In this document: one piece after another, positions 4,826 to 60,826 of the stretch
Layout of the letters: every line of letters begins with the position of its first letter
Position numbering within the stretch: position 1 is the stretch's first letter
Assembly (NCBI GenBank): GCA_938743325.2
Contig: OW568887.1
Span: forward strand, 310,001 to 374,000
DNA from: Pycnococcus provasolii
Taxonomy: Eukaryota > Chlorophyta > Pseudoscourfieldiophyceae > Pseudoscourfieldiales > Pycnococcaceae
Direction: 5' to 3'
DNA length: 64,000 nucleotides
Program-made: the position numbers and the translations under genes
The notes under the pieces: generated by a model
Told to the model about the DNA's origin: nothing
What the model saw: the letters and a program-made list of their open reading frames with translations, nothing else
Database searches by the model: none

Positions 4826-4853
4826 GGTAAGTTAGGGTTTCTGTTAGGGTTAA
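4826..4853 (+). repeat. Degenerate TTAGGG repeats upstream of bL27
   Basis: Two GTTAGGGTT units separated by a few bases lie about 80 bases before the bL27 start codon. They are a weak member of the interstitial telomere-like array class seen throughout the window. Confidence 0.6.
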
Positions 4854-4930
4854 GATTGGTCCCTGCCCAATCCCCTTCCCTCCTCCTCCACCTTCCTCCT
4901 CCCCCCTCCTCACTCTCTCCTCCGCGAACG

Positions 4931-5356
4931 ATGGCCGCGGCGTCGCGCTCCTGGGCGTCCCTAGGCGCTCTCGCATACTCGAACCTCGTCAACCCGCAGC
5001 GTGCGACCACGTTGGCATGCGTCATGCCGTGGAGCCTGACGCAAACGCGCACCGCGATGAAGAAGGCGGCGGGCTCGACCAAAAACGGAAGGTCGTCAGA
5101 GCCGAAGTACCTCGGCATGAAGGTGGGTGACGGGGAGAAGGTTTGGCCGGGACGGATCATCGCAAAGCAGAACGGGTACAGGTGGCACCCCGGGTTTAAC
5201 GTCGGCGTGGGCAAAAACTACACGCTGTATGCGCTCGAGCATGGATACGTTCGCGTGAAAACTGGAAAGACAGAGTGCCGAAACAAGTCGAGAAACGGAA
5301 AGAAGAGAAAGCTGATACATGTGTGCAACGAGAAAACGGCGGCTTTCATACAGTAA
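4931..5356 (+). CDS. Large-subunit ribosomal protein bL27, mitochondrial type
   Basis: 141 residues from the ATG at 4931. The N-terminal 40 residues are basic and Ser/Ala-rich, as in an import signal. The rest aligns by eye to bL27: KKAAGSTKNGR, YLGMKVGDGEKVWPG, IIAKQNGYRWHPGFNVGVGKN and TLYALEHGYVRV. The KYLGMK spacing and the basic extension after the core resemble mitochondrial bL27 more than the plastid form. bL27 sits near the peptidyl-transferase centre of the ribosome. The frame is open further upstream to 4691 but passes through low-complexity and telomere-like DNA, so the shorter start is preferred. Confidence 0.88.
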   Translation: MAAASRSWASLGALAYSNLVNPQRATTLACVMPWSLTQTRTAMKKAAGSTKNGRSSEPKYLGMKVGDGEKVWPGRIIAKQNGYRWHPGFNVGVGKNYTLYALEHGYVRVKTGKTECRNKSRNGKKRKLIHVCNEKTAAFIQ

Positions 5357-5370
5357 ACTACAACATGCTT

Positions 5371-6510
5371 TCACTTTGAACGTGGTAGACGCGAAACAAG
5401 AAACGCATAAAATTCAATCTCGGCACGACCGAGCAGGCTGAGCAATGTACCAAGTTGCTGCTTTGTTAACTTGTCACGGCGTTTTTTCCGCACCTTCGTC
5501 GCGCGCTCCGGGGACGCGTCGCCTCCCAGAGGCGTGATAGCGAGCTCGTTCGCCCACGCGAGCTGAGTCGCGTTCGCCCACTTGAATACACCACCAGGAA
5601 CAGCTCTTGTGAAGTGCGAGAGTGTGTCCGACCAAAGCTCTGTGACCCCAACCGCGGAATAGAAGAGCTCGGCGTTATCGCGCGCACGCGACAGTGTGCA
5701 CGACGCGCTCGAAGTTGCATCGCAGAAGAAGGTGAACTGTCTCTCATCCCAGCCGATGATGCGACGCAGTCTCTCCTCGGATGAAAGCGATGCTGTACAT
5801 TCCACACTCGTTAGGCGGTCGAGGCACTCTGAGGCAGACGTGTGTGAGTCGCACACTGGGCATCGACGGTCACCAACTCCTTCGCCACGCGCTGCTGCTG
5901 CGTAGTGCGCATTTATCATCTGCGGTCTATCCCCGCCTCGGTCCCAAGCATAACGGCTGAGTGCGCGCTCAACGGGATCCCGGACGAGGTTCATATACGT
6001 GACCTTGATTGCGCAGTCAGCAGCCAAGGCGCGGAAGGCGTTCTCAGGGTCCTGGCCATCCATCAGCCTGGAGAGCACACGCATCTCATCGCGAACAGCA
6101 CGTTCAATTGCAGCTGGCGAAATCATCCGCATGTGCTTTTCATAGACGATGGTTGCATCGCGCGCGCCGTGCTCGTGCAGTGCCATGGCGACGCGCCTCG
6201 CCACAATTGACAAAACTGCGTTTCTCTGTTGGTTGTTGAGAGCTCCTTTTTGATCAAATGCCTCATCTGATAGCACGCTCAGTGGTTCGTTAGCCGACCG
6301 CGCGCGTTCCTGCATGATCCAGATTAGCGTCGACGATGCCGTTTTTGGAATGCGATTGTACATGACGAGCGTGTGCACGCATCTTTGTGTCATGCTGCTT
6401 CTTGGGCTGCTGCTACACGACGATGACGCGCTTGACACCAGTTGGCAATCTGATACAACTGCAAATAGAGCGAGGAGGAGAGCACAACTCCTCGCTGGCA
6501 TGGGCGCCAT
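5371..6510 (-). CDS. Sulfotransferase, heparan/uronyl 2-O-sulfotransferase-like
   Basis: 379 residues. An N-terminal hydrophobic stretch (residues 7-25) fits a signal peptide or signal anchor, placing the enzyme in the secretory pathway. YNRIPKTASSTLIW at 51-64 matches the PAPS 5'-phosphosulfate loop of the Sulfotransfer_2 family, and NLVRDPVERALSRY at 174-187 matches its 3'-phosphate site. These enzymes move sulfate from PAPS to a hexuronic acid or other sugar in the Golgi. The substrate here is unknown; in an alga a cell-surface or extracellular polysaccharide is plausible. Several cysteine pairs in the second half suggest disulfides. The stop lies only about 14 bases from the convergent bL27 stop. 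Confidence 0.85.
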   Translation of the reverse strand: MAPMPARSCALLLALFAVVSDCQLVSSASSSCSSSPRSSMTQRCVHTLVMYNRIPKTASSTLIWIMQERARSANEPLSVLSDEAFDQKGALNNQQRNAVLSIVARRVAMALHEHGARDATIVYEKHMRMISPAAIERAVRDEMRVLSRLMDGQDPENAFRALAADCAIKVTYMNLVRDPVERALSRYAWDRGGDRPQMINAHYAAAARGEGVGDRRCPVCDSHTSASECLDRLTSVECTASLSSEERLRRIIGWDERQFTFFCDATSSASCTLSRARDNAELFYSAVGVTELWSDTLSHFTRAVPGGVFKWANATQLAWANELAITPLGGDASPERATKVRKKRRDKLTKQQLGTLLSLLGRAEIEFYAFLVSRLPRSK

Positions 6511-6897
6511 GATACAAAGTAATTACAAACGGCACAAACAGCAAACAGCAGCGGTCACGGATCCCTGGTCATCGCTGTGAGCCTATGATGACGGGACCCA
6601 CTGATTGGAATGGGGGTTAGGTTTCGATTGATTGGGGGTTAGGTTTGCGCATGACATTGGGGGGGGGAGGGAGCGCAGGGTGTGAGTTTGGCGCCATCGA
6701 GGTGGATCGCAGCGCCAGCGCCACCGGCCGACCGGCCGACCACAGGACTTGCGTGCGCCGCACAGCCCAACTTCGGCAAGACTGCCACCGCAGCCTTGTG
6801 GGTACTCTCCACCTTAAGGCGAGGTCCACGTGCCCGTCGAGTGCTTTCGGGTTAGGCCCACGACGAGCACTTGGCCTTTCAGAAGCACTTGGCCACG
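6511..6897. other. Divergent intergenic region, sulfotransferase/GT77
   Basis: 387 bases separate the two divergent start codons. They contain two copies of a GATTG...GGGGGTTAGGTTT block near 6603-6648, related to the telomere-like arrays elsewhere, then a G-run and GC-rich DNA. It probably carries both promoters. No gene was seen. Confidence 0.5.
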
Positions 6898-9024
6898 ATG
6901 CGTCGCATGCAAATATACAGCGCCTTCATCCTCCTCCTGCTCGTTCCTTTATTGGTGAAAACGTACGTGGTGCTCGTACACCACCCGTCGGCGACTGGAG
7001 ACCGATCAACCTCCAACGAAGTTCACGGCGAGTCGGCGTCGCGCGAACATCTACGCCGGGCTTTCTTGGCAAGGCAAGGAACGACGGCGGGGAGGCAGGC
7101 GCCCACGCAGGCGCCGAATCCTACGATGCAGTTGTCTGTATCGTCGACAACGGAAGTAGACGAGGAAATCACTTTGGATAGACTCATAGACCCGCGCAAA
7201 ACAACGGAGCCGCCAAGGTCGACCGCTGAGAAAGGATTTAAAGACTTCGGTGTGCCCGACGACTTGAAGTTGTCACACAATACGCTGATCATCACGTTTG
7301 CAAACTATGACTGGATGCACTTTCTGCGCAACTGGGTGTCGCACGCGAACCAGATTGGACTGGAAAAGTCGTTCGTCGTCGCGCCTATGGACGAGCAGAC
7401 GCGCAAGGCTTGTGCCGCAGAGAACATACCTGTTCTGCAAAAGGATATGAAGCAGTTTATGCATGAGCACGGTTCCGAAATTTTTCGCAACGCACCGAAG
7501 GACGTTTCCACAAGCTTCCTTGGACAGCTTCAGATCGATTACCCTGATATGCACGCGGGAATAATAGGCAACGTCATGTACCACCGCGTCATCGAGACGA
7601 AGTTCCACGTGTGGGCACTCGCGCTCATGCTTGTTTCACATCTGCAAATAAACGTTCTGGTGTCAGACAGTGACGTCGTCTGGCTGCGTGACCCACTACC
7701 CTACCTTGCTCGCTTTCATGGTGTTGCTGATGTTTCGATATCCACCGACTGTATCAGCGCCGAGGTAGAGCGCCTCGCCTATGACGTCAGGAAATCCAGA
7801 AGCACGTTCAATATCTCGTCGAAGTACAACTATGCGCCGAGATGCGGGCATCTTCCCATGCGCATCAGCGGCACGGCTTTTAATGCGGGAGTTGCATACG
7901 TCCGTGCAACGCCGGCGAGTACATATTTTCTTCGCGATGTTGTGCACGGCATGCTGGGAGGACCAGGGCGCAAGGATCCGTACTGGGACGATCAGTACGT
8001 CGTCAACGAGTACATCGTGCAACGAGGGAGATTTTTTCCTGTGGAATTCTTGGAATTTGAGGATAAAAAGGAGAACATCGTGCTCGCCCACAAGTTCAAC
8101 ATGGACGAAAAGAATAAGCCGCCACCTTTTCGCCTCCATACTCTTCCCATCACGCTCTTCAACAATGGCCACACATTCTTTGTCGACCAGATGCCCAAGC
8201 GCCTCGGCATTGATCCATACGCTGTTCATGCTACCTGGCAGATGAGCGGCAACGATGGAAAGCTGAGCAGATTTCGGCGAGCGCATGTATGGAACCTTGA
8301 CAACGACAATTACTATGACACCATGAGCGGACGATATCTAACGTACGAAGCACGCTATCCCGCGAAGCTCGTCGACGATTCGGACCTAGTGAACACGCAT
8401 ATGCGCGTCGTTCAGTATCACATCCACGGACTGCGAAATGCTATCGCGATTGCGCAGATTCTAAGACGTACGCTCGTGCTTCCTGAATTTCACTGCTACT
8501 GCGACCGTGATGAGCATCCGGATATCGTGAAGAACGATCCACCCACCTTCCGCAAGTGCACCACTCCAGGAAGCGACCTTGTGCTGCCGTACGAATGCCC
8601 GCTTGACCACCTCTTTGACGTTTCCGTTTGGGAACACAACCTTCATGGGCAGTACCGCGAGTCTACCTTCCTCAAACATCCAAAAGTTGTGGCAAGGGGC
8701 ATGGCAGAGACGAACATTTACGTCGGCTCCACCGTCGATGGCGTGCCATCCATTCCCATCAATGCCACGAACGCTGAGATCTCGCGCAGTCTCGCATCTT
8801 TCTCTGACGTGCCCCTCCTGCGATTCGGGCTTGACGTCGGCGGCGACACGAGCGACGAGAGCGCGATGAATTGGGCGTTTGGCTCATTCGTAAATGAAGA
8901 CCAGAACCAGCGATTTAATAAATTAGTGTCTATCCTGCTCGGGGGCTCCTGGTGCTGCACAAGCTATGATAAGTCGGTCGGAACCTGGCACTTCGACCCG
9001 CCAGAAGCGCTTGGCCGCCATTAG
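6898..9024 (+). CDS. GT77-family glycosyltransferase, XEG113/arabinosyltransferase-like
   Basis: 708 residues from the ATG at 6898; the frame extends nine codons upstream only through a TTG. A type II membrane anchor lies at about residues 6-26. The catalytic core has VSDSDVVWLRDPLPYL near 254-270 (the DxD-type nucleotide-sugar and metal site), NAGVAYVRATPASTYF and YWDDQYVVNEYI, all typical of the Nucleotid_trans/GT77 fold. The C-terminal half has LRNAIAIAQILRRTLVLP, cysteine-rich CYCDRDEH and YECPLDHLFD, which match the extra region of plant XEG113-like proteins. Those add arabinose to hydroxyproline-rich glycoproteins in the Golgi. The exact sugar here is not shown by the sequence. Confidence 0.88.
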   Translation: MRRMQIYSAFILLLLVPLLVKTYVVLVHHPSATGDRSTSNEVHGESASREHLRRAFLARQGTTAGRQAPTQAPNPTMQLSVSSTTEVDEEITLDRLIDPRKTTEPPRSTAEKGFKDFGVPDDLKLSHNTLIITFANYDWMHFLRNWVSHANQIGLEKSFVVAPMDEQTRKACAAENIPVLQKDMKQFMHEHGSEIFRNAPKDVSTSFLGQLQIDYPDMHAGIIGNVMYHRVIETKFHVWALALMLVSHLQINVLVSDSDVVWLRDPLPYLARFHGVADVSISTDCISAEVERLAYDVRKSRSTFNISSKYNYAPRCGHLPMRISGTAFNAGVAYVRATPASTYFLRDVVHGMLGGPGRKDPYWDDQYVVNEYIVQRGRFFPVEFLEFEDKKENIVLAHKFNMDEKNKPPPFRLHTLPITLFNNGHTFFVDQMPKRLGIDPYAVHATWQMSGNDGKLSRFRRAHVWNLDNDNYYDTMSGRYLTYEARYPAKLVDDSDLVNTHMRVVQYHIHGLRNAIAIAQILRRTLVLPEFHCYCDRDEHPDIVKNDPPTFRKCTTPGSDLVLPYECPLDHLFDVSVWEHNLHGQYRESTFLKHPKVVARGMAETNIYVGSTVDGVPSIPINATNAEISRSLASFSDVPLLRFGLDVGGDTSDESAMNWAFGSFVNEDQNQRFNKLVSILLGGSWCCTSYDKSVGTWHFDPPEALGRH

Positions 9025-9078
9025 ATAATGTGTAATTTAGAACTTTTCAGAAAAAAACTGAGCTTACAATCTTAAACC

Positions 9079-12165: not shown

Positions 12166-12991
12166 ATTATGATTTGTTACTATGAAAGTGTGATAGACTC
12201 TCAATAATTATAATATTGAGGAACTCTCTTGAGACTCACACGCACGAGAGGAGCCAAGAGCAAGAACACCAAGAGCAAACCTAACCAACCACGAAGATCA
12301 CACACACGCCAAGTTAAAAAAAAAAGTGGTGATGGGAGAAGTGATGGGAGAGATTATGCGCCTTGACCGAACAAGAGAAGACTTGCAAGACTTGCGAGTT
12401 GGAAAGCACACAACACAGCAAACAGTTGTACAACCCACCCCCGGAGCGATGCGCGTGCTGCTCTACTCATAGTGGTAAATGCCTGATACAACCCGCCTGA
12501 TTGCGCGCCGCCGAATTCTTCTGTCTCCCCTTAGGGTTAGGGTTAGGGTTAGGGTTAGGGTTAGGGTTAGGGTTTAGGGCTCGGGTTCCGGCGATAACTG
12601 CAGTACCCTCCTACAGAAAGCTAACGGTCTTCTCTCCCCCCTCGTTATCAGGGGCCATCCTCATCAGGGCTGGTCGCTCTCACATAGTCTCCTCAACTCC
12701 GACTTCTTGTTCCTTCGCATTTGCCCCTCTGCCATCCCTCCCTTGGGAGGAGGAAGGCCACGGCTCCTCCCACCTTCCTAACCTTAGGGCGGTGTCCCCC
12801 TAGGTGGGGCCGGCCGGCTTGAGAAGAGGCCCCTTGGGGGAGGTTGGTACTTGGTCGCGTTTCCTAACTTTTTGAGTGAGAGGCGCGGCGTTGCCCACCA
12901 CCTGGAGGTGCAGCAAACAGGAGGGGACTAGGGGAGGAGGCTTAGTTTGAGTCGTTGAGACCACTTGGACTCAAAGGGCGCAAGGACCACC
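12166..12991. other. Divergent intergenic region, kinase/WW-IQ
   Basis: About 830 bases between divergent start codons. They hold a (TTAGGG)n array, a poly-A tract near 12317 and an AT-richer half next to the kinase. Several CCTTAGGG and CCCCTAGG motifs lie toward the WW/IQ gene. No convincing gene was seen. Confidence 0.5.
12531..12579 (+). repeat. Interstitial (TTAGGG)n array, about eight units
   Basis: Perfect TTAGGG units run from 12531, ending with a TTTAGGG variant. The array lies between the divergent starts of the kinase and the WW/IQ protein. Confidence 0.95.
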
Positions 12992-14302: not shown

Positions 14303-14368
14303 AAGTTATAATACTCGACCTTGTGAAAAAAATAAAAATAAAATTTCTATAAGAATTCTGTGCTCGGG

Positions 14369-17423: not shown

Positions 17424-18879
17424 TTACAGGTGCACCGGACCCAATCCGCCACCACCACCACCACCACCACCACGCAGCTCCTTCTCCTCAAATGACGCAT
17501 AAGCCTCCTTGAGTTTGTCGAAGACGAAATCTGCGATGTAGAGCATCTCGGAATTTCCACCACGCTGCTTCACCTTGTCGGGGTGGATCTTCAGCATGGC
17601 CATCCGGTAGCCCTTCTTCACCTGGGCAGGATCAACAAGGTCCATCATATTGATGTCCTTCCAGTTGTTTCCTTCCCACAGCATCGGGCCAACGGATCCA
17701 AGCAGTGCACGAATATTCATGTGATTTCGTTTTCCCCAATCTTCAAGCTTGCCACCGTACTTCTGCTTCGCCTCCTGGCGTTCCTCACGCTCGAATGCCT
17801 CAGCCTGGTCCCTCTCCATTTTCTCGGCGAGTTTCTCCCGCATTTGTGAATTCCAACGAGCTAGGCGCTTCTCTCGCGCGATGCGACGCTCCTCCGGCTC
17901 ACCTTCTTCACCACGCTCGTTCAGCATTACCCTCGATGAAGAGGTTGCTGCGGCGGCGGATGGATCGTTGTTGAGGCCACCTCCAAAGTCCATCATGGGT
18001 CCGCCTGCCGAGGGTTGTTGTTGAGAGGATGCCACGGTCGGTCCGCCGAACAGATCGTCGAAGCCTGATGCTGATGTGCCTGACGTCGTGGGTTCACTGA
18101 TCCCTGCCATCATGCGCTCCAGCTCCGTGGCAGCGTCCACACGCTTGGCAGCCGATGCGGGAGCAGACAGTGCAGCTGCGGCGAAGAGGGTGTCGAGTGA
18201 GTCTGGGCTTGCTGCTTGCACTTCAGGTGCGGCAACAACGACGTTATTGTCAGGTGCTTCAGCATGGCCGAAGCTTCCGAGAAGGTCCGCCTCTGGTGGC
18301 GGGCTCTCCGCTTTCTGCTCCCGCTCCACCAACGCCGGTGCAGCGCCATCCTGCCATTCCGGCTCCGCGTTGTCATCATCACTGTCGGAGAAGGCTAGAT
18401 CATCGAACTCCGAGTTGCTCTTTGCCTGAGCCTTGTCGCTTATGTCGTTTTCGCCTTGATTGCCATCGTTCTTTTGTTTTCTTTCACGCGGCTTTGGGTA
18501 AACGCGAGACGACATCTTCTTTGCCTGTGACTGCATCTTCTGTGCCTGTGACTTCAACCGTGAGAAGATGCCTTCTTTCTTCGCAACCGGCGCCTCTGCG
18601 GCAAATGTGGTGTCGAGCGTATCAGGGTTTGCTGCCGGCTCTTCATGCTCGATGACTGTCGCTTCGACCCACTCTTCGTCCTCGTCGAGTCCGCTGGTGA
18701 CTTCAACTTCAGGCTCTTCTTGAGGAACAGAAACGTCGGGTTGAGGATTTGTGGGCACCCCGCTCGCAAAGGCGAGCAGAGCGTCCGCTTGGTCGTCAAG
18801 GGCGAGGCTATCCGAGGAAGCGTTCTTGGAAGCTGGTTTTTCGGCGAGCGAGAACGGATCATCGTCTGCGGGAAAGGTG

Positions 18880-18911
<32 letters not shown>

Positions 18912-19478
18912 GGCCATGCCGAAGAACGGGTCGTCGCCGACAGAGACGGGTGGTGATGATGAGCTGGTGTTTGCGTTGGTGGCCATGCCGAAGAACGGGT
19001 CGTCGCCGACAGAGACGGGTTGTGATGTTGAGCTTGTGTTTGCGTTGGTGGCCATGCCGAAGAACGGGTCGTCGCCGACAGAGACGGGTCGTGATGTTGA
19101 GCTTGTGTTTGCGTTGGTGGCCATGCCGAAGAACGGGTCGTCGCCGACAGAGACGGGTGGTGACGACGATACTCCCATGGCTTGCAACCCAAGGGGTGCG
19201 TGCTGTCTCGAAGACAGGCTGTGCGTGGATTCGCCTGACATGGGAACTCCCACAGGAGGCTTCGAAGAAGCAGACTGCATCCCCAGGGGGTGCGCCTGCG
19301 GGGCGCGCCATCCCGCACCTCCCACCATAGGCACACCTTTTTTGGAGGTAGCACCAAAACTTTTCTTGCCACCACCACCACCACCACCACCCCCACCACC
19401 ACCACCGAGACCGTCGAGCGCGCTGTTCAAGACGCCGTCCAGCAGGGTGTCGAGCTTCTGCGTTCGTGACGCGGACAT
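17424..19478 (-). CDS. Auxilin-like J-domain protein
   Basis: 684 residues. The C-terminal J domain (about 595-670) has the auxilin form: NMMDLVDPAQVKKGYRMAML followed by IHPDK at about 629-633, then a helix ending KEAYASFEE. Auxilins recruit Hsp70 to clathrin-coated vesicles for uncoating. The N-terminal half is disordered, with polyglycine near 25-37 and a tandem array of four 23-residue repeats, each carrying DDPFFGMA, plus a fifth DDDPFSLAE. DPF is a known AP-2 appendage-binding motif, which fits a clathrin-adaptor role. A basic/acidic coiled helix (RRIAREKRLARW to AKQKYG) precedes the J domain. Polyglycine also follows it at the C-terminus. Confidence 0.85.
18911..19165. repeat. 69-bp minisatellite, four copies, coding DPF motifs
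   Basis: Units begin at 18911, 18980, 19049 and 19118 with a 69-bp period. They are highly similar, with a few substitutions that alter the Ser/Thr-rich spacer. Each unit encodes one VGDDPFFGMA motif of the auxilin-like protein. Confidence 0.92.
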
Positions 19479-19804
19479 GATAGAAGTCTTCTAGGGAAGG
19501 GATGACAAATGAGCCCGACAACGCGTCGCAGGGGATGGATGCTTCGGAGGGGGAGGGGAGGGAGGAAAACGGTTCAACAACCAACCGAAAGCCTAACCCT
19601 AACCCTAACCCTCTCCCCAGAAAAAACAACTACGAGAGGGGAAACAACGCGGTTATCTGACTTGCCATACCAACCTATCGTAGCCCTTAAGAGTGGCTGG
19701 CACTTCATTGACGTGGCGCAGGTTTATACATCGTCATATGTTGGTACACGCGCAATTTAAAGGCGCAAGCTTTGGTACATATCGCTAGTGGCTAGGCTTG
19801 TTCC
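19479..19804. other. Auxilin promoter region
   Basis: 326 bases between the auxilin start and the Nudix stop. They hold the telomere-like array and one CTATCGTAG motif at 19675-19683. No gene was seen. Confidence 0.45.
19592..19612 (-). repeat. Interstitial (TTAGGG)n array upstream of auxilin
   Basis: About three CCCTAA units on the + strand, roughly 115 bases before the auxilin start codon. They read TTAGGG in the direction of that gene. Confidence 0.85.
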
Positions 19805-20743
19805 TCATCCCTCTAGCAAAAGCTTTTGTAGGACGAATCTGTGCCCGAGCGCAATGCCCTCGCCCATCGCATTCGGATACACGCCTTCGAGCTGGGACGC
19901 CATGAGGCCATCAGATACCCTTTCAGCCTCGTGAGGTGTGCTTCCGTCGTCGAACACGATTCTTCGCAGCGCGTCTCTTGTTATCCAAACGGCGGCATCC
20001 ACCTCATCCGCCGACGGGTGCAGCGCCTCCGTATCCAAGCAATCCGCGGTGAATCCCACCATGAGCGCGTGTGCGCGCATGCCGTCCCCTGATGTACAAG
20101 CACTCGCATCAACCGGGTACGCAGACTCCCACGCCGCGACGCAGCGAAGGTTTTCCGCGCAGACGAGTAGACCCGTCTCCTCGAGGACTTCTCTCGCCGC
20201 TGCCTCCTCAACCGTCTCTCCGTCGTCGACGGCGCCACCAGGTACCACCCAAGCACATGGGAAGCTGCGCATGTGTGCTGGCCGTCGCGTCAGCAGCACG
20301 GCGCCGTCTACTTTTCTCGTGACGACAACGACAGCCGCCGCCTTGACGCCCATGCGTGCACGCTCCTCCGACACCTTGACGGACGCCGTTTCGCTCTCTA
20401 GGTGTGTCCACAGACTTCTCTGCGAACCGCACATCACTTGGTACACGACCGCGTCTTTGCTCTCGTCAACGGCAGTGGAGTTTTCGTCGTCGTCACCTAC
20501 TGGCCCAACAGTCAGCTGATTCACACCACAGAGCAGGTTGACGGGCGCGACGATGTAGTCACCATGTTTTCCCATGATGTTTTGAAGATCGCCGGAACGC
20601 CGCAACCAGGACACAGAAGGAGTGTGGTGGCGCGTGATGCGCGTTCCGAACCGCGCCTCAACCGCGCCGAGTGGTGACGGAGCAGAAGCAGACGCAGACG
20701 CAGAAGCAGGCGACGGAGCAGGCAGCACGGTCACACGAGGCAT
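19805..20743 (-). CDS. Nudix hydrolase
   Basis: 312 residues from the ATG at 20743. A Nudix box lies at about 164-187: GGAVDDGETVEEAA then REVLEETG, matching GX5EX7REUXEEXGU with all metal-binding glutamates. It is preceded by VVTRKVDGAVLLTRRP and AWVVPGGA. Such enzymes cleave nucleoside diphosphates linked to another moiety. The substrate is not evident, though the overall layout is reminiscent of NUDT17-type proteins. The frame stays open upstream to 20872, but there it translates a telomere-like repeat (Asn-Pro codons), so the inner ATG is preferred. The N-terminal 40 residues are Pro/Ala/Ser-rich. Confidence 0.85.
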   Translation of the reverse strand: MPRVTVLPAPSPASASASASAPSPLGAVEARFGTRITRHHTPSVSWLRRSGDLQNIMGKHGDYIVAPVNLLCGVNQLTVGPVGDDDENSTAVDESKDAVVYQVMCGSQRSLWTHLESETASVKVSEERARMGVKAAAVVVVTRKVDGAVLLTRRPAHMRSFPCAWVVPGGAVDDGETVEEAAAREVLEETGLLVCAENLRCVAAWESAYPVDASACTSGDGMRAHALMVGFTADCLDTEALHPSADEVDAAVWITRDALRRIVFDDGSTPHEAERVSDGLMASQLEGVYPNAMGEGIALGHRFVLQKLLLEG

Positions 20744-20822: not shown

Positions 20823-20838
20823 TTAGGGTTAGGGTTAG
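20823..20838 (+). repeat. Short (TTAGGG)n array in the Nudix leader
   Basis: Two and a half units lie about 80 bases before the Nudix ATG, probably within its 5' leader. Confidence 0.8.
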
Positions 20839-21555: not shown

Positions 21556-21588
21556 CCCTAACCCTAACCCTAACCCTAACCCTAACCC
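21556..21588 (-). repeat. Interstitial (TTAGGG)n array, about five units
   Basis: Five CCCTAA units on the + strand about 220 bases upstream of COA5. They read TTAGGG toward that gene. Confidence 0.93.
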
Positions 21589-22575: not shown

Positions 22576-22606
<31 letters not shown>

Positions 22607-25228: not shown

Positions 25229-25263
25229 TTAGGGTTAGGGTTAGGGTTAGGGTTAGGGTTAGG
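25229..25263 (+). repeat. Interstitial (TTAGGG)n array, about six units
   Basis: A perfect array 59 bases upstream of the rhomboid start codon and 132 bases upstream of the oxidoreductase start. Confidence 0.95.
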
Positions 25264-35272: not shown

Positions 35273-36332
35273 TAATTGACTACCTATATTCAAGTTCAGT
35301 AATGGAATGGAATGTACTTTACTACATACAGTAAGTCCACCAAACACGTGACCACCAAACACAACATCACAGCTTATCACAACACATCACAACACATCAC
35401 AACCAGAACAAAACCTCCAATTCCTCCAGGTCTCCAGGAACTCCTGGAAAGTCCAAGGTTAGGGTTAGGGTTACAGGTTAGGGTTAGGGTTACCACGGTC
35501 CAGGGAGGGAAGAGGCGGAGTTGTACAACCTCAGACATCATCAGAGAGGGGCATTCATGAAACACATAACCCGAAAGTCGAAACCCTTCGAGGAAGGAAG
35601 GACCGACCCTTGCTGTGAAGCCTGTGATGCATGCAGTGAGTGCCTGTGAGAAGATGGTGTAAAGTTTCCCTGTGGGATGTGGTGGTTGCCTGACATTCGC
35701 TGTGCGCCTGTTCCTGACTTACATAGTTCTTAAGGTTACTGTACATAGAAATAGAAGTACAGTACGTACAGCAAGAACAGGTCATTCCCGCCGACGAGGT
35801 GCAGAACCGCGCAGAACCGGTGAGAAGTGAGAACCGGAGCTCCTAGGATCCTGACACATGAAACACGAGCCGAGGAACGTCCGGAGCCCGGCCGGGGAGG
35901 AAGTCACCCTAAGCCTAACCCGTTCCCCCCTAAAGGTACGATAGACTACGAACGCCATATCCTTACCAAGTAGAAGTACTTACCGGGTTGGCGTTGTGCA
36001 TGCGCGGCCGGCCCCTTATTACGGTAGAGTTTAGACAATTCTTCGAAGTGAACCAATAATGGAGGTGCCAGAGAGGTGTGCCAGGGCCCCTATTAAGGTA
36101 TGTATTCTTCGCGTCCCAATTCTTACCCTGCCCTGCCCGTTCATCGAGCTCACACAGTGCAGTGACACAGCCAGCGTAACTAACCTGCGACTACTTCTAC
36201 AGTAGAATGTTAGGCTTGGGGAGGAGCCTCAGCGACTCCTCCAGTGCCAGGGGGCCCACAGCGTATTCTCCCCACCTCCTTCTCGGGCTGCCCGGCCGGA
36301 GTCGTCTCCTGGAGTCCGTGTCAACGCTCGTC
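35273..36332. other. Intergenic region, ATG12 to thioredoxin
   Basis: About 1.06 kb. It holds ACATCACA repeats near 35366-35400, a telomere-like array, a TACGATAG motif at 35937-35944 and GC-rich patches. No convincing gene was seen. Confidence 0.45.
35459..35492 (+). repeat. Interstitial (TTAGGG)n array, interrupted
   Basis: Two groups of two TTAGGG units separated by TTACAGG. This is the only array that is not close upstream of an annotated start codon. Confidence 0.9.
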
Positions 36333-41661: not shown

Positions 41662-42197
41662 AGATTCGACCAGTGTGGCGTCTTGAATGAAGAAATAGGA
41701 AAAGTGAAATGAAATGAAATGGGGATAAGACAAATGTCGGAAAGGAAACGGGACGCGCCGCCAAAAGCAAAAGCGGGGTGAGAGTCGGGGATAAGCTTTT
41801 TGAGCGGGGCCGGGGGCGCCCAGCAGTTGGTTGATGAGGAGGGGGGGAACTGCCGCCCTAACCCTAATAGCCCTAACCCTAACCCTAACCCTAACCCTAA
41901 CCCTAACCCTAACCCTAACCCTAACCCTAACCCTAACTTTCTATCGTAGGGTAGCTATCGTAGGGTTTCTTCCTTCGGGATTGCTTTTTTTCCCCTCCCG
42001 AGGCCTCCCCGGAGCTCCCCCTCCTCACCGGCAGTCCGGACTCCGGACCCCTACTGTATTGTCGGGAACGAGCGAGAGTTGGCGCGCAAAACCCCCCCGC
42101 AAAGCAGGCCGACGGTAACTAAGACTTAGTTCTATTTCTCCTTGTCATTTTCAATCCCGCTCTCTTGTGTGTCTCACAAGTCTTCAAGTTGTCTCTC
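41662..42197. other. Divergent intergenic region, UMP kinase/SRA-SET
   Basis: About 535 bases containing the longest telomere-like array in the window, followed directly by two CTATCGTAGGG motifs (41941-41951, 41955-41965). No gene was seen. Confidence 0.55.
41857..41937 (-). repeat. Longest interstitial (TTAGGG)n array, about thirteen units
   Basis: Two CCCTAA units, a TAG interruption, then eleven perfect CCCTAA units on the + strand. It lies between the divergent UMP kinase and SRA-SET genes. Confidence 0.97.
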
Positions 42198-48600: not shown

Positions 48601-48613
48601 ACTAGTACTACCA

Positions 48614-50938: not shown

Positions 50939-51117
50939 AGTAAAGTAAGTGTAAAAATTCAAATTGACCAAATTCATTTGTGTATGATAGCAGAAGAGAA
51001 AAAAAATATCACGAGTCGTTACAGAAGCGACGAGGTAACCCCTTCCATGAAAACAATCCGTCCATCCTTAAAAAAAAAGGTAAAAGTATTTACAGCACTC
51101 TCCTCACAGCTCTCTCC

Positions 51118-52155
51118 TCACTTTGAAAGGAGCAGCGCGCCGAGGAGAAACCCGAGGAGAACGCCGCCAGCGCCAACCGTGTAGTGCGGGTATGGCACGG
51201 GACACGATCCCGAGCTGCCACTGGGACTGGCGGCTGGTGCTGCCGACGCACCGTTCACCATCATGCACAGGCTAAGGCAGTAGTCGGCATCCGTGTCCTC
51301 GAGCGTGTCGAAGATGGATTTTTTGATGGGCATCGACTTGGCGCCGTACGTCACCTGCGGGTCAACGCTCCACGCCTCGATCGTCTTCATGGGTATTCCC
51401 GCATCAATCATCGCCTTGCCAAAGGCGTCCTCCTGGCACTTGACACCAAGCCAGTTCATCTTCTCCGCGAGCGCCTCGAACGGCGACGCGGATGCGTGCA
51501 CGCCGTTGTCGCCGGTGTTCGGCTCCGTGGCGAGTCCGAGGCTCTTCCACTTGGCCATGATCTGCCCACGCAGGCTGTCGGCGGGCGCGTCCGCCGGGTC
51601 CGTGGGTCCGAGCACTTCTCCTCGGAACGACTCCCAGCTGAGCTGTTTGCTGTCCCACTCGACGACGTAGTACTTGATGCACTTTCCCGGCTCGGTGAAC
51701 CGCGATCGCATGGACATGAAGAATCCGTTGAAGACGTAGATGTCCTTGACAAGTCCGCAGTAGAATCCTCCCCCGAACTTGACAAGTTTCCCATCCTTCT
51801 TCGCCGCTCCCCACAGTTTGTCGAGTCCCTCGGCGTCGACACCAAAGTGTTTGCACGCATCCGCGGCGTTGTACGCCTGTCCTTTCGCGAGTACGGAAGC
51901 CCACGACACACCAAACTTCTCTTGAAACTTCTCCGCAGGTACGTTAAGTTCCGAGGGTTTCAGCAGAGTCGCTTTGGACGCGATGGCATAGTAGTGTTGG
52001 TCGATAAGTTTCGACGAGTCGATGACATCGGAGGAAATTGTACCTGTGGATGTCACGGAGATACCCTTACTTTTCAAACTATCAGACACCAAAGACTCGC
52101 ACGAAGGAGTGACAGCGTGAGGCTTGATGAACACGAACGCAGACTGACGAACCAT
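51118..52155 (-). CDS. Large NDP-kinase-like protein with C-terminal anchor
   Basis: 345 residues from the ATG at 52155, more than twice the usual NDPK length. The N-terminus has SAFVFIKPHAV (NDPK start strand). FRGEVLGPTDPADAPADSLRG and the active-site HASASPFEAL follow only after an insert of about 100 residues (KFGVSWASVLAKGQAYNAADAC, GLVKDIYVFNGFFMSMRSRF). The catalytic His is present in VHASAS. The last 20 residues (GAGGVLLGFLLGALLLSK) form a hydrophobic tail anchor after a Ser/Pro/Gly linker. It probably transfers phosphate between nucleotides on a membrane surface, but the insert may have changed its role. The stop is near the convergent carboxypeptidase gene. Confidence 0.8.
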   Translation of the reverse strand: MVRQSAFVFIKPHAVTPSCESLVSDSLKSKGISVTSTGTISSDVIDSSKLIDQHYYAIASKATLLKPSELNVPAEKFQEKFGVSWASVLAKGQAYNAADACKHFGVDAEGLDKLWGAAKKDGKLVKFGGGFYCGLVKDIYVFNGFFMSMRSRFTEPGKCIKYYVVEWDSKQLSWESFRGEVLGPTDPADAPADSLRGQIMAKWKSLGLATEPNTGDNGVHASASPFEALAEKMNWLGVKCQEDAFGKAMIDAGIPMKTIEAWSVDPQVTYGAKSMPIKKSIFDTLEDTDADYCLSLCMMVNGASAAPAASPSGSSGSCPVPYPHYTVGAGGVLLGFLLGALLLSK

Positions 52156-52745
52156 ATTACTAATGAAAGATAACAAAAGAATAGAGCGAAGGGAACGAAA
52201 ATGAGAAAGAGAGATGCGCCGCCGCCGCCGGGGTGAAAGTGAGGAGAACAAGGGTCCCGAAACCCTAACCCCCAGGGAGTTGCAGTAGACAACGGTGTAT
52301 CCCCACATAGGGTGGAGGGGCGATTGATCTGGGACCCGGTAAAGGTATCATATGTATGGCGTCTTGATGCATGGCCATGTTCACCTGTGCGGATACGTTT
52401 AGTACAGATGCTGGTTAAGTCCCATCTTGGGCAAGCAGAGCTATTCGAGTGTGTGAGCATGAATTTCATAAGTTTTAAGGCTAGTTGGGAACGATTCTAA
52501 ATAGATCACGTGTGTGTGTGTGTGTGTGTGCATGCACATCTAAGATGGGGTGGTACTACCTGTAAATAGTGTATTTGTAAATCAACCATCTCTTTTTTAT
52601 TTATTTTTTTATAAAAATTAATCTCGTCGTGTGTAAATATGTTGATGTATCATTTGCACCAACACACAGACCGAATACCTTGTATCTTCGGAACTTACCC
52701 TATCCCTCGCTCTCAACTCCTTAAAACCCCTTCTTTTCCCTGTAC
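52156..52745. other. Intergenic region upstream of the NDPK-like gene
   Basis: About 590 bases. It holds a minimal telomere-like motif (52258-52273), a (GT)n tract at 52511-52530 and an AT-rich stretch near 52590-52640. No gene was seen. Confidence 0.45.
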
Positions 52746-53455: not shown

Positions 53456-54596
53456 TGTTGTGTACTGTAAGGTGCTACTTAAAAAAATGAGAGATTGGGT
53501 TAGGGCTACGGGTACTTCTAGGCGTCAGAGACGTGTTCGGGCCGACGAAGCGAGCGCCTTGCAGTGTGTCTTTGGAGATAATAAGGCGACAAAATCCACC
53601 GCGATCCACCGCGAGTATCGAAAAATGTTTTATGTAGTCCTACTTTACAAGTACAACGTCCCATCGAGGCATCGACGAGGCCCGATCGAGAGCTGAGAGG
53701 CACGCGCCCATGCCTGCCTGCCCAAATGCATGTGTGTCAACAACTGGAAAAAGCAAACCCATAGACTATCGTAGGGTATTGTCAACACGACACTCGCAAC
53801 AGCACCTACCGGCTAGTCGGCTACCGAGTACCGTCAAGTGTCAACCACTCAACCCAACAGGGAGGGAGGGACACAAGGAGGCCAGCTTTGTCCTTTGTCT
53901 TGTCTATCGTAGAGACGTAGACAAGACAGTGTACACGTCAGGTCAGGCCCTGTTGCAGTGTGGCATGACCCGTACTGTGTATGTATCACTCGGGACCCAA
54001 CGGTACATATGTCAACAGTCAACTGAGGGGGAGAGCTCTGGGTGGTATGTAAGTACTATGGTACGGGGATACACGGTGGTCTATTACTACGGTACCGTGG
54101 TATTGCGGTGATTCGGGTTGCCGTGGAGCGCCTCAGGGGCCGCCTGGCCTAGGTGGCCTACTAGGTGGGAGGAAGAGTCCATCCCAAGGGGGAATCAACC
54201 AACCTCAATGTTCCATTCAAGGCTGCAAGGGGGGGATTGATATTTTATACTTTTTATATTTTTATATTTTTATTCCCCCCTCGAACTCGAAGGAATCTTT
54301 AATTTTTTATTTCATTTATGTGCTAGGGGACCTTGAAGAGGGGACCTTAGTCTAAGGAGCGCCATTATTGGACCCGGACGCCATTTATTTCACCACCATA
54401 TTTTAGCGGTCCATTTCGGGTCCCGGTCCATTTCCGGCGCAGCGGTGGTACAGTACCTACCGTATACCTTTATTGGTACGTTAAGCTTAGGAATCAACGT
54501 GTTTCTTGCATTGTCCGTGCTCTTTCTCTGTTTGACTTTTGTTTTCTCTTTTTGTCTGTGCTCTGTGCTCGCGCACATCTTGTTACAGAGCTTGCC
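53456..54596. other. Intergenic region, PLAC8 to SPX-RING
   Basis: About 1.14 kb. A GGGTTAGGG box lies about 43 bases before the PLAC8 start (53498-53506). CTATCGTAG motifs occur at 53766-53774 (followed by GG) and 53904-53912. An AT-rich block with repeated TTTATATTTT lies near 54240-54275. The last 100 bases before 54597 look like a pyrimidine-rich leader ending in TTACAG, so a short 5' intron there is possible. No gene was seen. Confidence 0.45.
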
Positions 54597-55778: not shown

Positions 55779-55943
55779 AGCCGTAGCCTTAACCCGTAGG
55801 AAGTAGCCTTAAGCCGCCTACTCCCCCAAACAAAGAAGGAATGAACGTGTGAAACAACCTGTCACTTCTGTCACCTGTAAACGTAAACGTAAACATTTAT
55901 AAGACCGTATTACCTGTAACCCCGAACGATCAACGACGTAGCG

Positions 55944-55969
55944 CTAACCCTACCCTAACCCTAACCCCC
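55944..55969 (-). repeat. Telomere-like CCCTAA motifs upstream of the FtsZ-like gene
   Basis: Degenerate CTAACCC units, two perfect, sit between two GCGCTAA copies. They lie about 165 bases before the preferred start of the FtsZ-like gene. Confidence 0.75.
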
Positions 55970-56132
55970 TTTAGCGCTAACCCCCAATTATATAAAAATG
56001 AGAAAGGGTAAACCCCTAAACGAAACGCGTGTTATTATTTTTCGAAAGCGCGCGCCTTCTTGTTTTTCCGAGGGTGGGACAAAGCCCCCTCCCCCCTGGC
56101 AGCCTGGATTGTCCAACGAAATATACACCGGT

Positions 56133-57854
56133 ATGGCTTTGATGCCGTGCCCTCAACGCGTTCGCCTGAGGAGGGTTGGGTTAGGTGTTCGCGCTGCTGC
56201 TGGTGGTGGTGGGTGTGGTGGTGGTGGGCGTGTTAAGCGTGTTACCAGAGCGTTACCAGAGAGAAGTGCGGGGTTCTTTCAGAATCATGCGAGGGATTCA
56301 TTTGTCGCGTCGCGCCTCTCTGAGCTGGAGCAGCGTGTGAAACGGGAAATCAGGGATGCCACAGGCGTGGAACCTTGTCCGCCGGGAAGCGCGAGCACGA
56401 GTGCACGAGTCCACGAGGAGGAGGTCCTACAGCAACAGCATACACAGGTCAAGCCGTCCACCACGGAAGCTGATGATGCTACAGAATACGAACGCGAACG
56501 CGAAGACGAGCAGGGTCGACCGACAGTCGTCTGCGTGGGAACGCGTGGCGCATTTCAAGCTCTCACAGCTAACACAGAACTTGCTGTCGACACATTTTAC
56601 CTTGACACGGATACTACGATCGTCGCGCAGCTCGAGGGTGCCTCGTCCACAAATCCGAACTGCGCCGCTGTCGCGGTGGACCCCACCTTTGCAAGGGAGC
56701 TCGAGTCTGGCGACGGCGACGACAACGAACCAACCAACTCGCGCATGCGTGCCATACTCAATTTGCACGAATCAAGCGCAGGCACGCCGGTGGTGATACT
56801 CGTCGGCCTCTCCGGAGGTGGACTTGGCGCAGGAACGGCGCGACACGTCGCAGCGTCAGCGAAACGAGCAGGCAGGCCCGTCGTTGCCGTTGTTGCGATG
56901 CCTTTCGCATTCGAGGGACCGCGAAAAAGGAAGCAGGCTGCCGACTCCGCCGCCAGGCTTCGTGAAATGTGCCAGGCGGTGCTCGAAATAGACTCCGACG
57001 CGCTGGGCAAGCAGGCACCTACCGTCGCAGATGCCGCCAAGCTCGGAGATGCCACGCTCGTCGGCGCAGCACTTGCGGCAATCGCAATACAACGTGCGAG
57101 TTCCGAGGCGCTGGAATTAGGATCGATAGGTGCTGTCTCCGTGTCCACGGAACCTGTTCCTCTCTCCAAACAGAATTTGGTTTCAGGGTTCGGCGATCCG
57201 CCCACGGCGCAGATTGTCGCCGCCGCGGCGCGCACGGCGGCACGCAGGGCGGCGGACGCGGCGCTCGTCGCGGGTGCATGGCAGAGAGGCGCGGTGGCTG
57301 TCATCGCCGCCGCCGCTGCGCCGGGAGTGCCAGACTACGCCGACACGCTGCGATCCTGCGACGTGGCGGCGAAGGGTGCGCTGTCTGCATTGCAGGAGGA
57401 GGCGAGCGCGCGAGCTTCCGGGGATGTTGCAGTAGGAGTGCATGCAACGCCGATGATGCCTCGTCTCGAGGGGGAGGAGGCTGGTGTGAGCGTTGCCTTG
57501 ATGGTTTTGTGCGCAGACTCTGCTGACAGCAGCGCATCTTCGCCGCCATCACGAGTCCAGCCTCCGGAGGAAGAGGTGCTGCCACCATCCCAGCCTCGTG
57601 CGGAAGCAGAGGAGGAACTGGAGGAGGAGGAGGAGGAGGAGGCGGAACTGGAATTGGAGGAATTGGAATTGGAGGATGAAGTGGAGCCCTTCCAAGATTC
57701 CAAGCTGAGCAGCGCGGCTGCTCGCGCACGTGGGATGTTGCAGGATGAGCGCATGCTCGACAAGCCCATGCCGACAACTGCGTCAGCACGTGCTCGAGGC
57801 ATGCTTGACCGTGATCGCATCGAGCGTGACGGTCGTCGTCGTCGCGAGAAATGA
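56133..57854 (+). CDS. ARC3-like FtsZ-homology plastid division protein
   Basis: 573 residues from the ATG at 56133, whose first 25 residues are basic and Ala/Gly-rich like a transit peptide. The frame also has an ATG at 55998. An FtsZ-like domain spans about 130-455. The tubulin signature is altered to GLSGGGLGAGTARH (near 222-235) and is followed by VVAVVAMPFAFEGPRKRKQA and VLEIDSDAL...TVADAAKLGDATLVGA, closest by memory to plant ARC3. ARC3 limits FtsZ-ring placement in plastid division. No MORN repeats are visible at the C-terminus, which is instead acidic (poly-Glu near 490-515) with two repeats of ARARGML. Confidence 0.75.
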   Translation: MALMPCPQRVRLRRVGLGVRAAAGGGGCGGGGRVKRVTRALPERSAGFFQNHARDSFVASRLSELEQRVKREIRDATGVEPCPPGSASTSARVHEEEVLQQQHTQVKPSTTEADDATEYEREREDEQGRPTVVCVGTRGAFQALTANTELAVDTFYLDTDTTIVAQLEGASSTNPNCAAVAVDPTFARELESGDGDDNEPTNSRMRAILNLHESSAGTPVVILVGLSGGGLGAGTARHVAASAKRAGRPVVAVVAMPFAFEGPRKRKQAADSAARLREMCQAVLEIDSDALGKQAPTVADAAKLGDATLVGAALAAIAIQRASSEALELGSIGAVSVSTEPVPLSKQNLVSGFGDPPTAQIVAAAARTAARRAADAALVAGAWQRGAVAVIAAAAAPGVPDYADTLRSCDVAAKGALSALQEEASARASGDVAVGVHATPMMPRLEGEEAGVSVALMVLCADSADSSASSPPSRVQPPEEEVLPPSQPRAEAEEELEEEEEEEAELELEELELEDEVEPFQDSKLSSAAARARGMLQDERMLDKPMPTTASARARGMLDRDRIERDGRRRREK

Positions 57855-58110
57855 TGAGCCTGCATGTCCTACTACCGTTGTTTCCACCATATGTTGATCT
57901 TTTTGTTGTGTTGCGTGAACGTGTGAATGTCTGTGTGTGTTTGGATTTCGTGGCGTGTAATTCTACTTTCTTTTTACAATCTCCGACTGGCGACTTGCGA
58001 CTGTTCCAGCACAAGGTTTCGAACGTGCCTCTGCTGTGTTGCATGCAGTACTGTGTGCGCACAATACAGCCGACGTCTCTTCGTGGATGGCTATTCCTGC
58101 AGTATGTTTG

Positions 58111-58431
58111 TTATCTTCTTTTGTCTCTAGCTTCTGCTGCGAGTTTGATTTTCGCCTCAAGTTCTTGTCGTGACTTGGGCGCGTACGTTTCTTGCACAAT
58201 CATGAGGGCGGCAGGTCCTGCTGTGACCCACGAGACGAAGTATCCCGCTTTGAACAACGACGTATTCTTAGCTTTGTATGCAAGGAAAGTTCCAAGAAGG
58301 CTTATAACACCTACAGTCCCGAGGACACGGGAGACACTACTAGTACTAGTAGGAGTACTAGTAGTAGTAGGAGTAGGGGCAATCACCTTAATCGCTTCGG
58401 AGGGGGAGGGGGACGACGACACGGACGACAT
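58111..58431 (-). CDS. Small two-helix membrane protein, unrecognised
   Basis: 106 residues from the ATG at 58431. A Ser/Thr/Pro-rich N-terminus (partly from ACTAGT repeats) precedes two hydrophobic segments (VLGTVGVISLLGTFLAY, AGYFVSWVTAGPAALMIV) and a charged helix (RQELEAKIKLAAEARDKRR). It could be a mitochondrial or plastid membrane protein. No family assigned. It converges on the FtsZ-like gene. Confidence 0.6.
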   Translation of the reverse strand: MSSVSSSPSPSEAIKVIAPTPTTTSTPTSTSSVSRVLGTVGVISLLGTFLAYKAKNTSLFKAGYFVSWVTAGPAALMIVQETYAPKSRQELEAKIKLAAEARDKRR

Positions 58432-58750
58432 CAAACACACACTGATCAATCGCGTGCTGATTTGATGGGAATGGTGGATTGTGAGCCACACCTTGCACGT
58501 GGCCTTGCCTTGACATGCACGAACAAGCCAGCCCCTAGGGTAATAAAACCCGAAGAGGCTCCAACGCGAACTCGAACCTATAAACCCCTACTCTGACCCC
58601 CTACTTCTGAACGGAACCCCCGAAGTACAAGGGTTTTAGGGGGGGCCAGTATTGCCAATGAAGGTCGTCTTTTACACAAACCGAAATTAAAACCAAAAGT
58701 AGGTCTCCTGCTCCAGTAACCAACTATAGTCAACAGGGAGGGAGGGTGGG

Positions 58751-58929
58751 AGGTTGTTTGCGAAGCAAGCAACCAACAGCAAGAGTGGATACGCGCGCGC
58801 AGCCCTAAGGGAGAGGCCACCCGAGGGTCTCGAGAGGGGCCGTGACCCTCCTGGCGGCCGCCCAGAACCAGCAGCGCGAGCGACTCCCCCCAATCAAAAA
58901 CCCCAATTAAACAAGTAGAACTGAAGATT
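58751..58929. repeat. 179-bp direct repeat, left copy
   Basis: It matches 60616-60794 over 179 bases with no difference that I could find by eye. The next bases are TTTAGGGGGGG. Confidence 0.92.
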
Positions 58930-59469
58930 TTAGGGGGGGCCAGTATTGCCATCATAGTCACGTGTCTCCACGAAGAGGAGAGACGAGTGTCACCAATCGT
59001 GACGCCAAATTGGCCAGCGGCGAGCTCCAAGGCGCGACAGGTGTGAGGTGAACCCCTAAACGGGATACGCCGAACTGCCAAAACCCCCAACAGGGAGGTA
59101 GGCGTGAGCCAAAAGTGTGGAGAAGTGGAGCTTAAGGAGTGGTTGTGAGTGTGTTTTGGTGTGGCGTATACACGTTCGTTGACATTGTGGAGCTCGTGTT
59201 TGGCGTGACTTGGTGTTCTTTGTTTATATAAAAACGTAAATACGGTGTGGTTGGTTAAGCTAGAGGTTAACGGAGAGGGAGAAGGACCTTAGAGGTGCTA
59301 GTTGTGGGCGCCATCGCAACGTCATCGAGGCGGGCGAACGGAGGGTAACAAGGAAACTGCAGGGTTGCAACTGTTACAGGCTCGGGCGCAAGCGTGGCAC
59401 GAAGGCCTGGACGGTGAGCGTAAGCTGCAGCACCTAGAGGGCAGCCAGCAGTAACCAGGGAGCCGAGAT

Positions 59470-59870
59470 CCCATCGTCGCAGCAGGCAGGTGGCTTCGCA
59501 GCAGGCAGGTGGCTGGCATTACAGTGCCTCAACGACAACGGGCAGCGGTGAGCGCAGCAGCAGGTGGCTGGTGATCACAGCAGCAAGCAGGTCGCAGCAG
59601 CAGGTGGCTTCGCAGCAGACAGGTGGCATCACAGTGCCTTGGTCAGCGGGCAGCGGTGACGAAGCAGCAGGTGGCTGTTGATCACGGCAGCAGGCAGGTG
59701 GCTTCGCAGCAGACAGGTGGCTTCGCAGCAGGCAGGTGGCATCACAGTGCCTTAGTCAGCGGGCAGCGGTGAGCGTAGCAGCAGGTGGCAGACGATCACG
59801 GCAGCAAGCAGGTCGCAGCAGGCAGGTGGCTTCGCAGCAGACAGGTGGCATCACAGTGCCTGAAAGGTTC
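59470..59870. repeat. Satellite-like GCAGCAGGCAGGTGGC repeats
   Basis: Short units GCAGCAGGCAGGTGGCTTC are nested in a higher-order repeat of about 110 bp. The anchor ACAGTGCC occurs at 59521, 59631, 59744 and 59853. The units also contain GATCAC and GGGCAGCGGTGA blocks. Confidence 0.88.
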
Positions 59871-59887
59871 AGGGTGGCATCGTGCGG

Positions 59888-60451
59888 TCACTGGTGTGAC
59901 CTGACATCCAGAACGGAATCAATCTCCGCGATCTTCTTGTTCAGTTCGTTGAAGTGAACCAGGGCGTCTCCGTCCGGGTCTAACGGTTTCCCGTCGTCTC
60001 CGCGCTCGACGTCCAGCTCTCCTTCGACGTAAGTCGCTAGATCCTCCACTCGGTCGTCTGTCTCCTGTTGCAGACTCAGCACTCCGAGTTCCAGGTATGC
60101 GCTGACACTCACAATCGATCGGAAAATCCACGCGTTGTGGGACGACGCGTGTCCCTGTTTAACTGATTCAGCCTCTAGGTGCTGAAGAACAGGATTCGAC
60201 GGCAAGGAAAGCAGGGTTGGCTTGCCGCGACGCAGAATCCCAGCCGTAGGTAGCGACTCCGCGTGGCGAGCGTCCGGGTAGATGGCAGGCACCACGTAAT
60301 CTAACGTGGGCTCGCCTCCGTCGTCGGCAGCCTTCTTGCCTTTCTGCTCAGCTTCTGCAGCTGCGCGGCGCTCCTGTGCGAGCGCAATCTCCAGCTGCAA
60401 TATTTCGCGACGAGCTTCCAGAACCTCGAGTTCGTTCGGCGCGTCAGCCAT
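59888..60451 (-). CDS. Orphan protein inside the 179-bp repeat pair
   Basis: 187 residues, not recognised. An N-terminal coiled coil (EVLEARREILQLEIALAQERRAAAEAEQ) precedes a globular part (YVVPAIYPDARH, PTLLSLPSNPVLQHLEAESVKQG, IFRSIVSVSAYLELGVLSLQQ) and an acidic tail. It lies between the two 179-bp direct repeats and next to satellite-like repeats, so it may be encoded by a mobile or duplicated element rather than be a host housekeeping gene. No reverse transcriptase, integrase or transposase was seen nearby. Confidence 0.6.
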   Translation of the reverse strand: MADAPNELEVLEARREILQLEIALAQERRAAAEAEQKGKKAADDGGEPTLDYVVPAIYPDARHAESLPTAGILRRGKPTLLSLPSNPVLQHLEAESVKQGHASSHNAWIFRSIVSVSAYLELGVLSLQQETDDRVEDLATYVEGELDVERGDDGKPLDPDGDALVHFNELNKKIAEIDSVLDVRSHQ

Positions 60452-60615
60452 TAATCAATCGATTAAGGATCTACACAGTAAACTTCCAATCGAAGATTGC
60501 TGATGTCTAGATCTAAGCGTAGATACTTAGACCGTTTCGGTGTACAAACTACGTCCCTCGAAGACGCGTCCGACGTGTGTTCGACCTCCCACTACTCGTG
60601 TGTAGTGCGGCTGTT

Positions 60616-60794
60616 AGGTTGTTTGCGAAGCAAGCAACCAACAGCAAGAGTGGATACGCGCGCGCAGCCCTAAGGGAGAGGCCACCCGAGGGTCTCGAGA
60701 GGGGCCGTGACCCTCCTGGCGGCCGCCCAGAACCAGCAGCGCGAGCGACTCCCCCCAATCAAAAACCCCAATTAAACAAGTAGAACTGAAGATT
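60616..60794. repeat. 179-bp direct repeat, right copy
   Basis: It matches 58751-58929. Its last bases GATT run straight into a (TTAGGG)n array. Confidence 0.92.
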
Positions 60795-60826
60795 AGGGTT
60801 AGGGTTAGGGTTAGGGTTAGGGTTAG
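60793..60826 (+). repeat. Interstitial (TTAGGG)n array fused to the right repeat
   Basis: About five and a half TTAGGG units begin within the final TT of the right 179-bp repeat. They end 88 bases before the ATG at 60914. Confidence 0.95.

Follow-up and report, generated by a model that had tools for sequence, protein, structure and literature searches.

We asked why the DNA of the green alga Pycnococcus provasolii carries tandem arrays of the telomeric unit TTAGGG between its genes, and whether these arrays are specific to that unit, tied to gene starts and used there by a protein. The stretch that raised the question, here called the window, is C27:310001-374000, that is, 64,000 nucleotides (nt) of contig C27 in a genome of 32.33 Mb and 46 contigs. 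CCCTAA repeats lie inside the first 351 bases of C27, as is expected of a TTAGGG telomere.

The arrays are real and telomere-specific. Across the genome, three successive TTAGGG units gave 2626 + 2591 = 5217 overlapping matches in 32.3 Mb, whereas the same unit read backwards, also three times, gave 2. A control of the same composition, AACCTC three times, had 12 genome-wide matches, and 3 when read backwards. Array beginnings, marked by A, C or T before TTAGGGTTAGGG, numbered 992 genome-wide against 1 for the control. Within the window, exact overlapping matches to TTAGGGTTAGGG numbered 34, and none occurred in 100 dinucleotide shuffles.

Gene calls were made on a 314-kb sample, comprising the window and C27:1-250000, or ~1% of the genome in two pieces of one contig. 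The repeat counts alone are therefore genome-wide, and a 5' bias across the genome would be an extrapolation from the 36 loci described below. Open reading frames (ORFs) were called by a hexamer score that had been trained on the long ORFs in this DNA and took account of neither introns nor RNA evidence, and distances were measured from predicted start codons rather than from transcription start sites (TSS). This gave 141 ORFs, 118 of them with an ATG, and divided the sample into 229,296 base pairs (bp) of coding sequence (CDS), 45,438 of divergent, 24,677 of tandem and 10,849 of convergent DNA. The called coding share was 70-74% and the content of G and C (GC) 57-58%. The genes look intron-poor, being mostly long open frames in which introns are not obvious. 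Runs within 100 bp of each other were merged into one locus. The first 1,200 bases of C27, which hold the telomere, were left out of the orientation, run, co-occurrence, locus and distance-band counts and of the repeat table of upstream words, and isolated single boxes were left out of the distance-band test.

TTAGGG formed 36 array or cluster loci in the sample, of which 27 contain a run of 14 nt or more and 9 consist of several short runs. All of them were in 5' DNA and none in CDS, as against 0-3 loci in 5' DNA for each of nine other hexamer classes of the same composition. Counted as runs of at least 8 nt, the unit appeared 112 times in 5' DNA, 2 times in convergent DNA and 12 times in CDS, and the mirrored unit 10 times in 5' DNA; such counts overstate independence, so the locus-level counts were used. 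Arrays measured 2 to 11 units. The repeat kept one orientation throughout the locus in 33 of the 36, which fits synthesis as a tandem array. In contrast, orientation relative to the nearest gene was mixed, as had been noticed from the sequence alone: TTAGGG stood on the mRNA strand at 15/28 loci and not at 13/28. Of 38 telomeric runs tallied (runs at C27:1-30000 left out), 22 were preceded by A, and A also dominated among 100 listed array starts on C1-C3. Variant repeats such as TAACCCTAATTG, present nine times near C27:23.1 kb, occur in the subtelomeric loci L009-L011 (C27:1-23200) and resemble the flank of the C27 telomere.

The loci gathered at a defined distance from predicted starts. One locus lay 0-50 bp from the nearest start (0.15 per kb), 27 at 50-300 bp (0.89 per kb), 6 at 300-750 bp (0.28 per kb), 2 beyond 750 bp (0.17 per kb) and none in convergent DNA (0 per kb). 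The share of 27/36 upstream at 50-300 bp exceeded the bp share of that band in 5' DNA (P = 1e-4), whereas other tandem repeats with units of 4-12 bp did not concentrate there (44/97, P = 0.18), and the telomeric loci stood above them (Fisher P = 0.002). With strong ORFs alone, 22/36 loci were in the band (P = 4.5e-5; Fisher against other repeats P = 0.004), and without the window site at 60793 and the loci at C27:1-30000 it held 25/33 (P = 1.4e-4). Density near starts against other non-coding DNA of equal composition was the refuting test that the sequence-only reading had set; run on the sample, it gave this excess, and the proposed closeness to starts held and sharpened to 50-300 bp. An array or cluster lay no more than 420 bp from the start in 42 of the 118 ATG ORFs. 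Among 106 upstream regions, TAGGGTTA was the most over-represented 8-mer (29 vs 0.9 expected). The second over-represented upstream word was TACGATA / CTATCGTA, its 7-mer being found in 16/106 regions vs 1.3 expected.

The window holds 13 sites, which had been listed from the sequence alone as telomere-like arrays, plus single boxes near 6616 and 53498, outside called CDS; all but the one at 35459 had been placed within ~420 bp of a start:

4831..4852, plus strand: TTAGGG box pair, 78 bp upstream of ORF 4931-5356 (plus).
6614..6643, plus strand: GGGGTTAGG box pair in a divergent gap, 103/254 bp from the starts of ORFs 5371-6510 (minus) and 6898-9024 (plus).
12531..12574, plus strand: perfect array of 44 nt in a divergent gap, 365/417 bp from the starts of a cNMP-binding kinase ORF (minus) and a WW/IQ ORF (plus).
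19592..19612, minus strand: array of 21 nt, 113 bp upstream of ORF 17424-19478 (minus).
20823..20838, plus strand: array of 16 nt, 79 bp upstream of NUDIX ORF 19805-20743 (minus).
21556..21588, minus strand: array of 33 nt; its near start is that of a weak ORF (score 18), and the next start is 674 bp off.
25229..25263, plus strand: array of 35 nt in a divergent gap, 58/131 bp from the starts of a rhomboid ORF (minus) and a dehydrogenase-like ORF (plus).
35457..35492, plus strand: two runs of 17 nt; an exception, nearest start 1466 bp.
41856..41937, minus strand: the window's longest array, runs of 12 + 67 nt in a divergent gap, 194/260 bp from the starts of an amino-acid-kinase-family ORF (minus) and an SRA-SET ORF (plus).
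52261..52271, minus strand: isolated single box, 105 bp upstream of ORF 51118-52155 (minus).
53497..53505, plus strand: isolated single box; an exception, nearest called start 1091 bp.
55944..55967, minus strand: runs of 8 + 16 nt, 174 bp upstream of Tubulin/FtsZ-family ORF 56142-57854 (plus).
60793..60826, plus strand: array of 34 nt directly adjoining a dispersed repeat at its right end; the ORFs nearby are both weak (near-start ORF score 24).

All 13 exist, and none (0/13) lies in a called CDS, as stated. Besides 53498, the site listed at 52258 is an isolated single box, and those at 4826 and 6616 are box pairs, the latter reading GGGGTTAGG rather than TTAGGG. The distance held for 11/13, with 53498 beyond it besides 35459, and at 21556 and 60793 it depends on weak ORFs; the latter site falls in a convergent gap if strong ORFs alone are counted. 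The array at 60793 is part of the edge of a dispersed element.

The genome encodes TERT. A search with an Arabidopsis TRB1 Myb query gave five matches, of which three reached E 3e-7 or better. One of these loci, L040 (C37:387500-389300), holds an ORF of 378 amino acids with 67% identity over 61 residues to the Arabidopsis TRB1 Myb stretch. Pfam placed a Myb domain (PF00249) at residues 5-56 and then a linker-histone domain (PF00538) at residues 114-175 (E 8.7e-10), the best PDB matches were TRF2 and TRF1, and the C-terminus is, by eye, a charged stretch. Judged by its telobox Myb and H1/H5 domain in plant order, the predicted protein is of TRB type, since in TRB proteins, too, the H1/H5 domain comes after a telobox Myb at the N-terminus (PMC10167121, PMC12616469). 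An association of TRBs with telomeric arrays and with telo-boxes has been described (PMC10167121); the accounts cited place their origin in streptophyte algae and state that Chlorophyta need study (PMC10167121, PMC12616469). The 441 bp upstream of L040 contain one TAGGGTTT and lack the TTAGGG hexamer. A second locus, L041 (C9:344900-346700), is identical to L040 at 83/91 N-terminal residues and 256/273 nt, after which its C-terminus is unrelated; two CCCTAA boxes lie 75-93 bp upstream of its ATG. L041 looks like a recent chimera, because it has its N-terminus in common with L040, the rest differs and the Pfam scan found no linker-histone match in it.

With moderate confidence, we read the loci as promoter-proximal telo-box arrays, which the addition of telomeric repeats would have seeded and which would be kept as sites where TRB docks. 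Telomeric repeats would be added or expanded in open promoter DNA, by telomerase at free 3' ends or by slippage from such a seed. Many of the resulting arrays would then be retained because a TRB-type protein docks there and recruits chromatin or transcription machinery. Several adjacent repeats may be favoured for binding, since single boxes are not enriched.

Several observations weigh against docking and regulation at these sites. Breaks in open promoters would give the same position bias, and one telo-box suffices for plant TRB binding (PMC10167121). Enrichment of single boxes was not found: the sample held 30 isolated short boxes, 16 in 5' DNA, 2 in convergent DNA and 12 in CDS, and nine control classes gave 2-18 in 5' DNA. 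No preferred partner motif emerged, the co-occurrence of an array with TACGATA (15 gaps vs 11.3 expected) showing no clear excess. Tandem gaps held 9 loci in the half next to the start and 6 in the half next to the stop. With all ORFs, convergent gaps contained 0/36 telomeric loci (P = 0.006) and 6/97 other repeats of 4-12 bp (P = 0.019), a comparison in which composition is not fully matched, convergent DNA having a GC of 0.437 as against 0.515-0.517. This depletion was gone with strong ORFs alone (3/36, P = 0.29); it hinges on weak ORFs and was dropped as main proof.

The chief rival, which we regard as possible but tentative, is that the arrays are neutral scars: telomerase or the repair of breaks with telomeric DNA adds TTAGGG where breaks are commonest, in open promoter chromatin, and the arrays then decay without function. 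Several features agree with it, namely the in-register repeats with their single orientation at 33/36 loci, the telomere specificity together with an encoded TERT, the mixed orientation to genes and the varied neighbouring genes. For plants, Gaspin et al. have put forward a telomerase origin (PMC3022908), and short interstitial telomeric sequences (ITS) of primates and rodents are described as insertions at break repair (PMC7215372). However, decay should end in isolated boxes, and these show no excess, although fast deletion or recent birth would also explain this. Nor do scars alone explain the TRB-type protein, which may serve telomeres only.

It is unlikely that nothing special is at work, i.e., that any microsatellite gathers in promoters because these make up most non-coding DNA of a gene-dense genome, the pattern being in part an artefact of gene calling. 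The high coding share and the sparsity of other repeats in convergent gaps are in line with it, and plant microsatellites are reported to have the same 5' bias (PMC3022908). In contrast, the other repeats show no concentration in the band of 50-300 bp, where the telomeric loci exceed them with all ORFs and with strong ORFs, and arrays of hexamers with the same composition are almost nil.

The array at 60793 led into a different kind of sequence, a dispersed element at the right edge of the window:

58629..60794, no strand assigned: dispersed element with two identical 179-bp direct repeats (58751-58929 and 60616-60794) and a middle that varies between copies.

Further loci of this element are L034-L039 and L043-L054, and the copies compared were 97-99% identical over common parts. 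Its ends, TC...CTAA on the minus strand, presumably recall those of Helitrons. Genome-wide, the 179-bp sequence had at least 40 matches, at least 22 of them of right-end type (40 scored out of 100 candidates). Among 19 right ends read, 15 adjoin repeats with exact TTAGGG, the others being L038, L051, L052 and L054; several of the TTAGGG-type repeats at right ends are degenerate. Insertion beside existing arrays would be the simplest reading, and the element may thus use interstitial telomeric arrays as landing sites. Tails made on the element by telomerase were judged less likely, because several tails are degenerate though the copies are 97-99% identical. That the arrays in general are tails or targets of promoter-preferring mobile elements is highly improbable: the adjoining repeats at 60793 and at those 15 of 19 copies speak for it, but among 49 arrays flank-tested in the sample, longer non-simple flanks were common to 60793 and subtelomeric loci only, which leaves tails unsupported there as a general origin.

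How do the arrays compare with known systems? Gaspin et al. 2010 reported telo-boxes concentrated in plant 5' untranslated regions (UTRs) and made two proposals, one of telomerase action on free 3' ends within promoters and one of a part for telo-boxes in expression (PMC3022908). Because both were proposed for plants, a telomerase origin and a regulatory role are not exclusive (PMC3022908). As described for land-plant telo-boxes, the algal units lie 5' of genes and are rare in CDS, and a control sequence excludes composition (PMC3022908). The land-plant boxes consist of about one unit (AAACCCTA), peak in the 5' UTR or near the TSS, and are described at ribosome-biogenesis genes with site II or TEF boxes (PMC3022908). 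By contrast, the algal loci have 2 to 11 units, single boxes are unenriched, the genes are varied and no partner motif is shown; the telo-box parallel drawn from the sequence alone is therefore apt by 5' position, and it fails for isolated boxes. Like the break-repair ITS of primates, rodents and horse, these are short TTAGGG arrays off telomeres, but they are concentrated at gene starts and far denser (PMC7215372). Among the titles and abstract openings covered by the literature searches, none on such promoter arrays in algae was found, which is not proof of absence. Telomere proteins of the Tbf1/Teb1/Tay1 type in fungi also act at promoters. In the alga, too, a Myb protein of telomere type could serve at promoters, its architecture being instead of the plant TRB type. 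Taken together, telomerase seeding and TRB association cover most observations, and what differs is the array form, its extent and the absent single-box enrichment.

Gene functions near arrays were surveyed inside the window, as the Pfam scan covered 18 window ORFs and three Myb ORFs; CYP38-like, amino-acid-kinase-family and Tubulin/FtsZ-family ORFs are among those present. The PsbO encoded in the genome (227 aa) matched eleven PDB chains, probably all from green algae and land plants, at 302-336 bits and a further 23 chains at no more than 239 bits, in keeping with the green lineage. Rfam gave zero matches in the window at the gathering threshold, and no tRNA was found there. A near-perfect 78-bp tandem repeat of 6.9 copies (window 2329-2864) lies in ORF 933-2957 and encodes a 26-residue repeated unit. 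Ribosomal-protein loci were located in the genome; on contig C46, matches to the S8 and L23 families are separated by 4 kb, and C46 may be the plastid genome, as these two matches suggest.

A bolder version, which we consider doubtful, is that multi-repeat arrays at about a third of promoters are platforms for a telomere-binding TRB/H1-like protein and that the dispersed element lands on them. If this were true, one protein pool would be shared between chromosome-end protection and a general promoter function, telomere length could titrate transcription, and promoters would gain new regulatory elements from telomerase itself. For the age of TRBs, too, a TRB-type protein in a green alga with a 32-Mb genome is relevant. 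If arrays, and not single boxes, are the promoter unit, a genome with thousands of natural sites makes two questions directly testable, namely the seeding of promoter elements by telomerase and the doubling of telomere proteins as general promoter factors.

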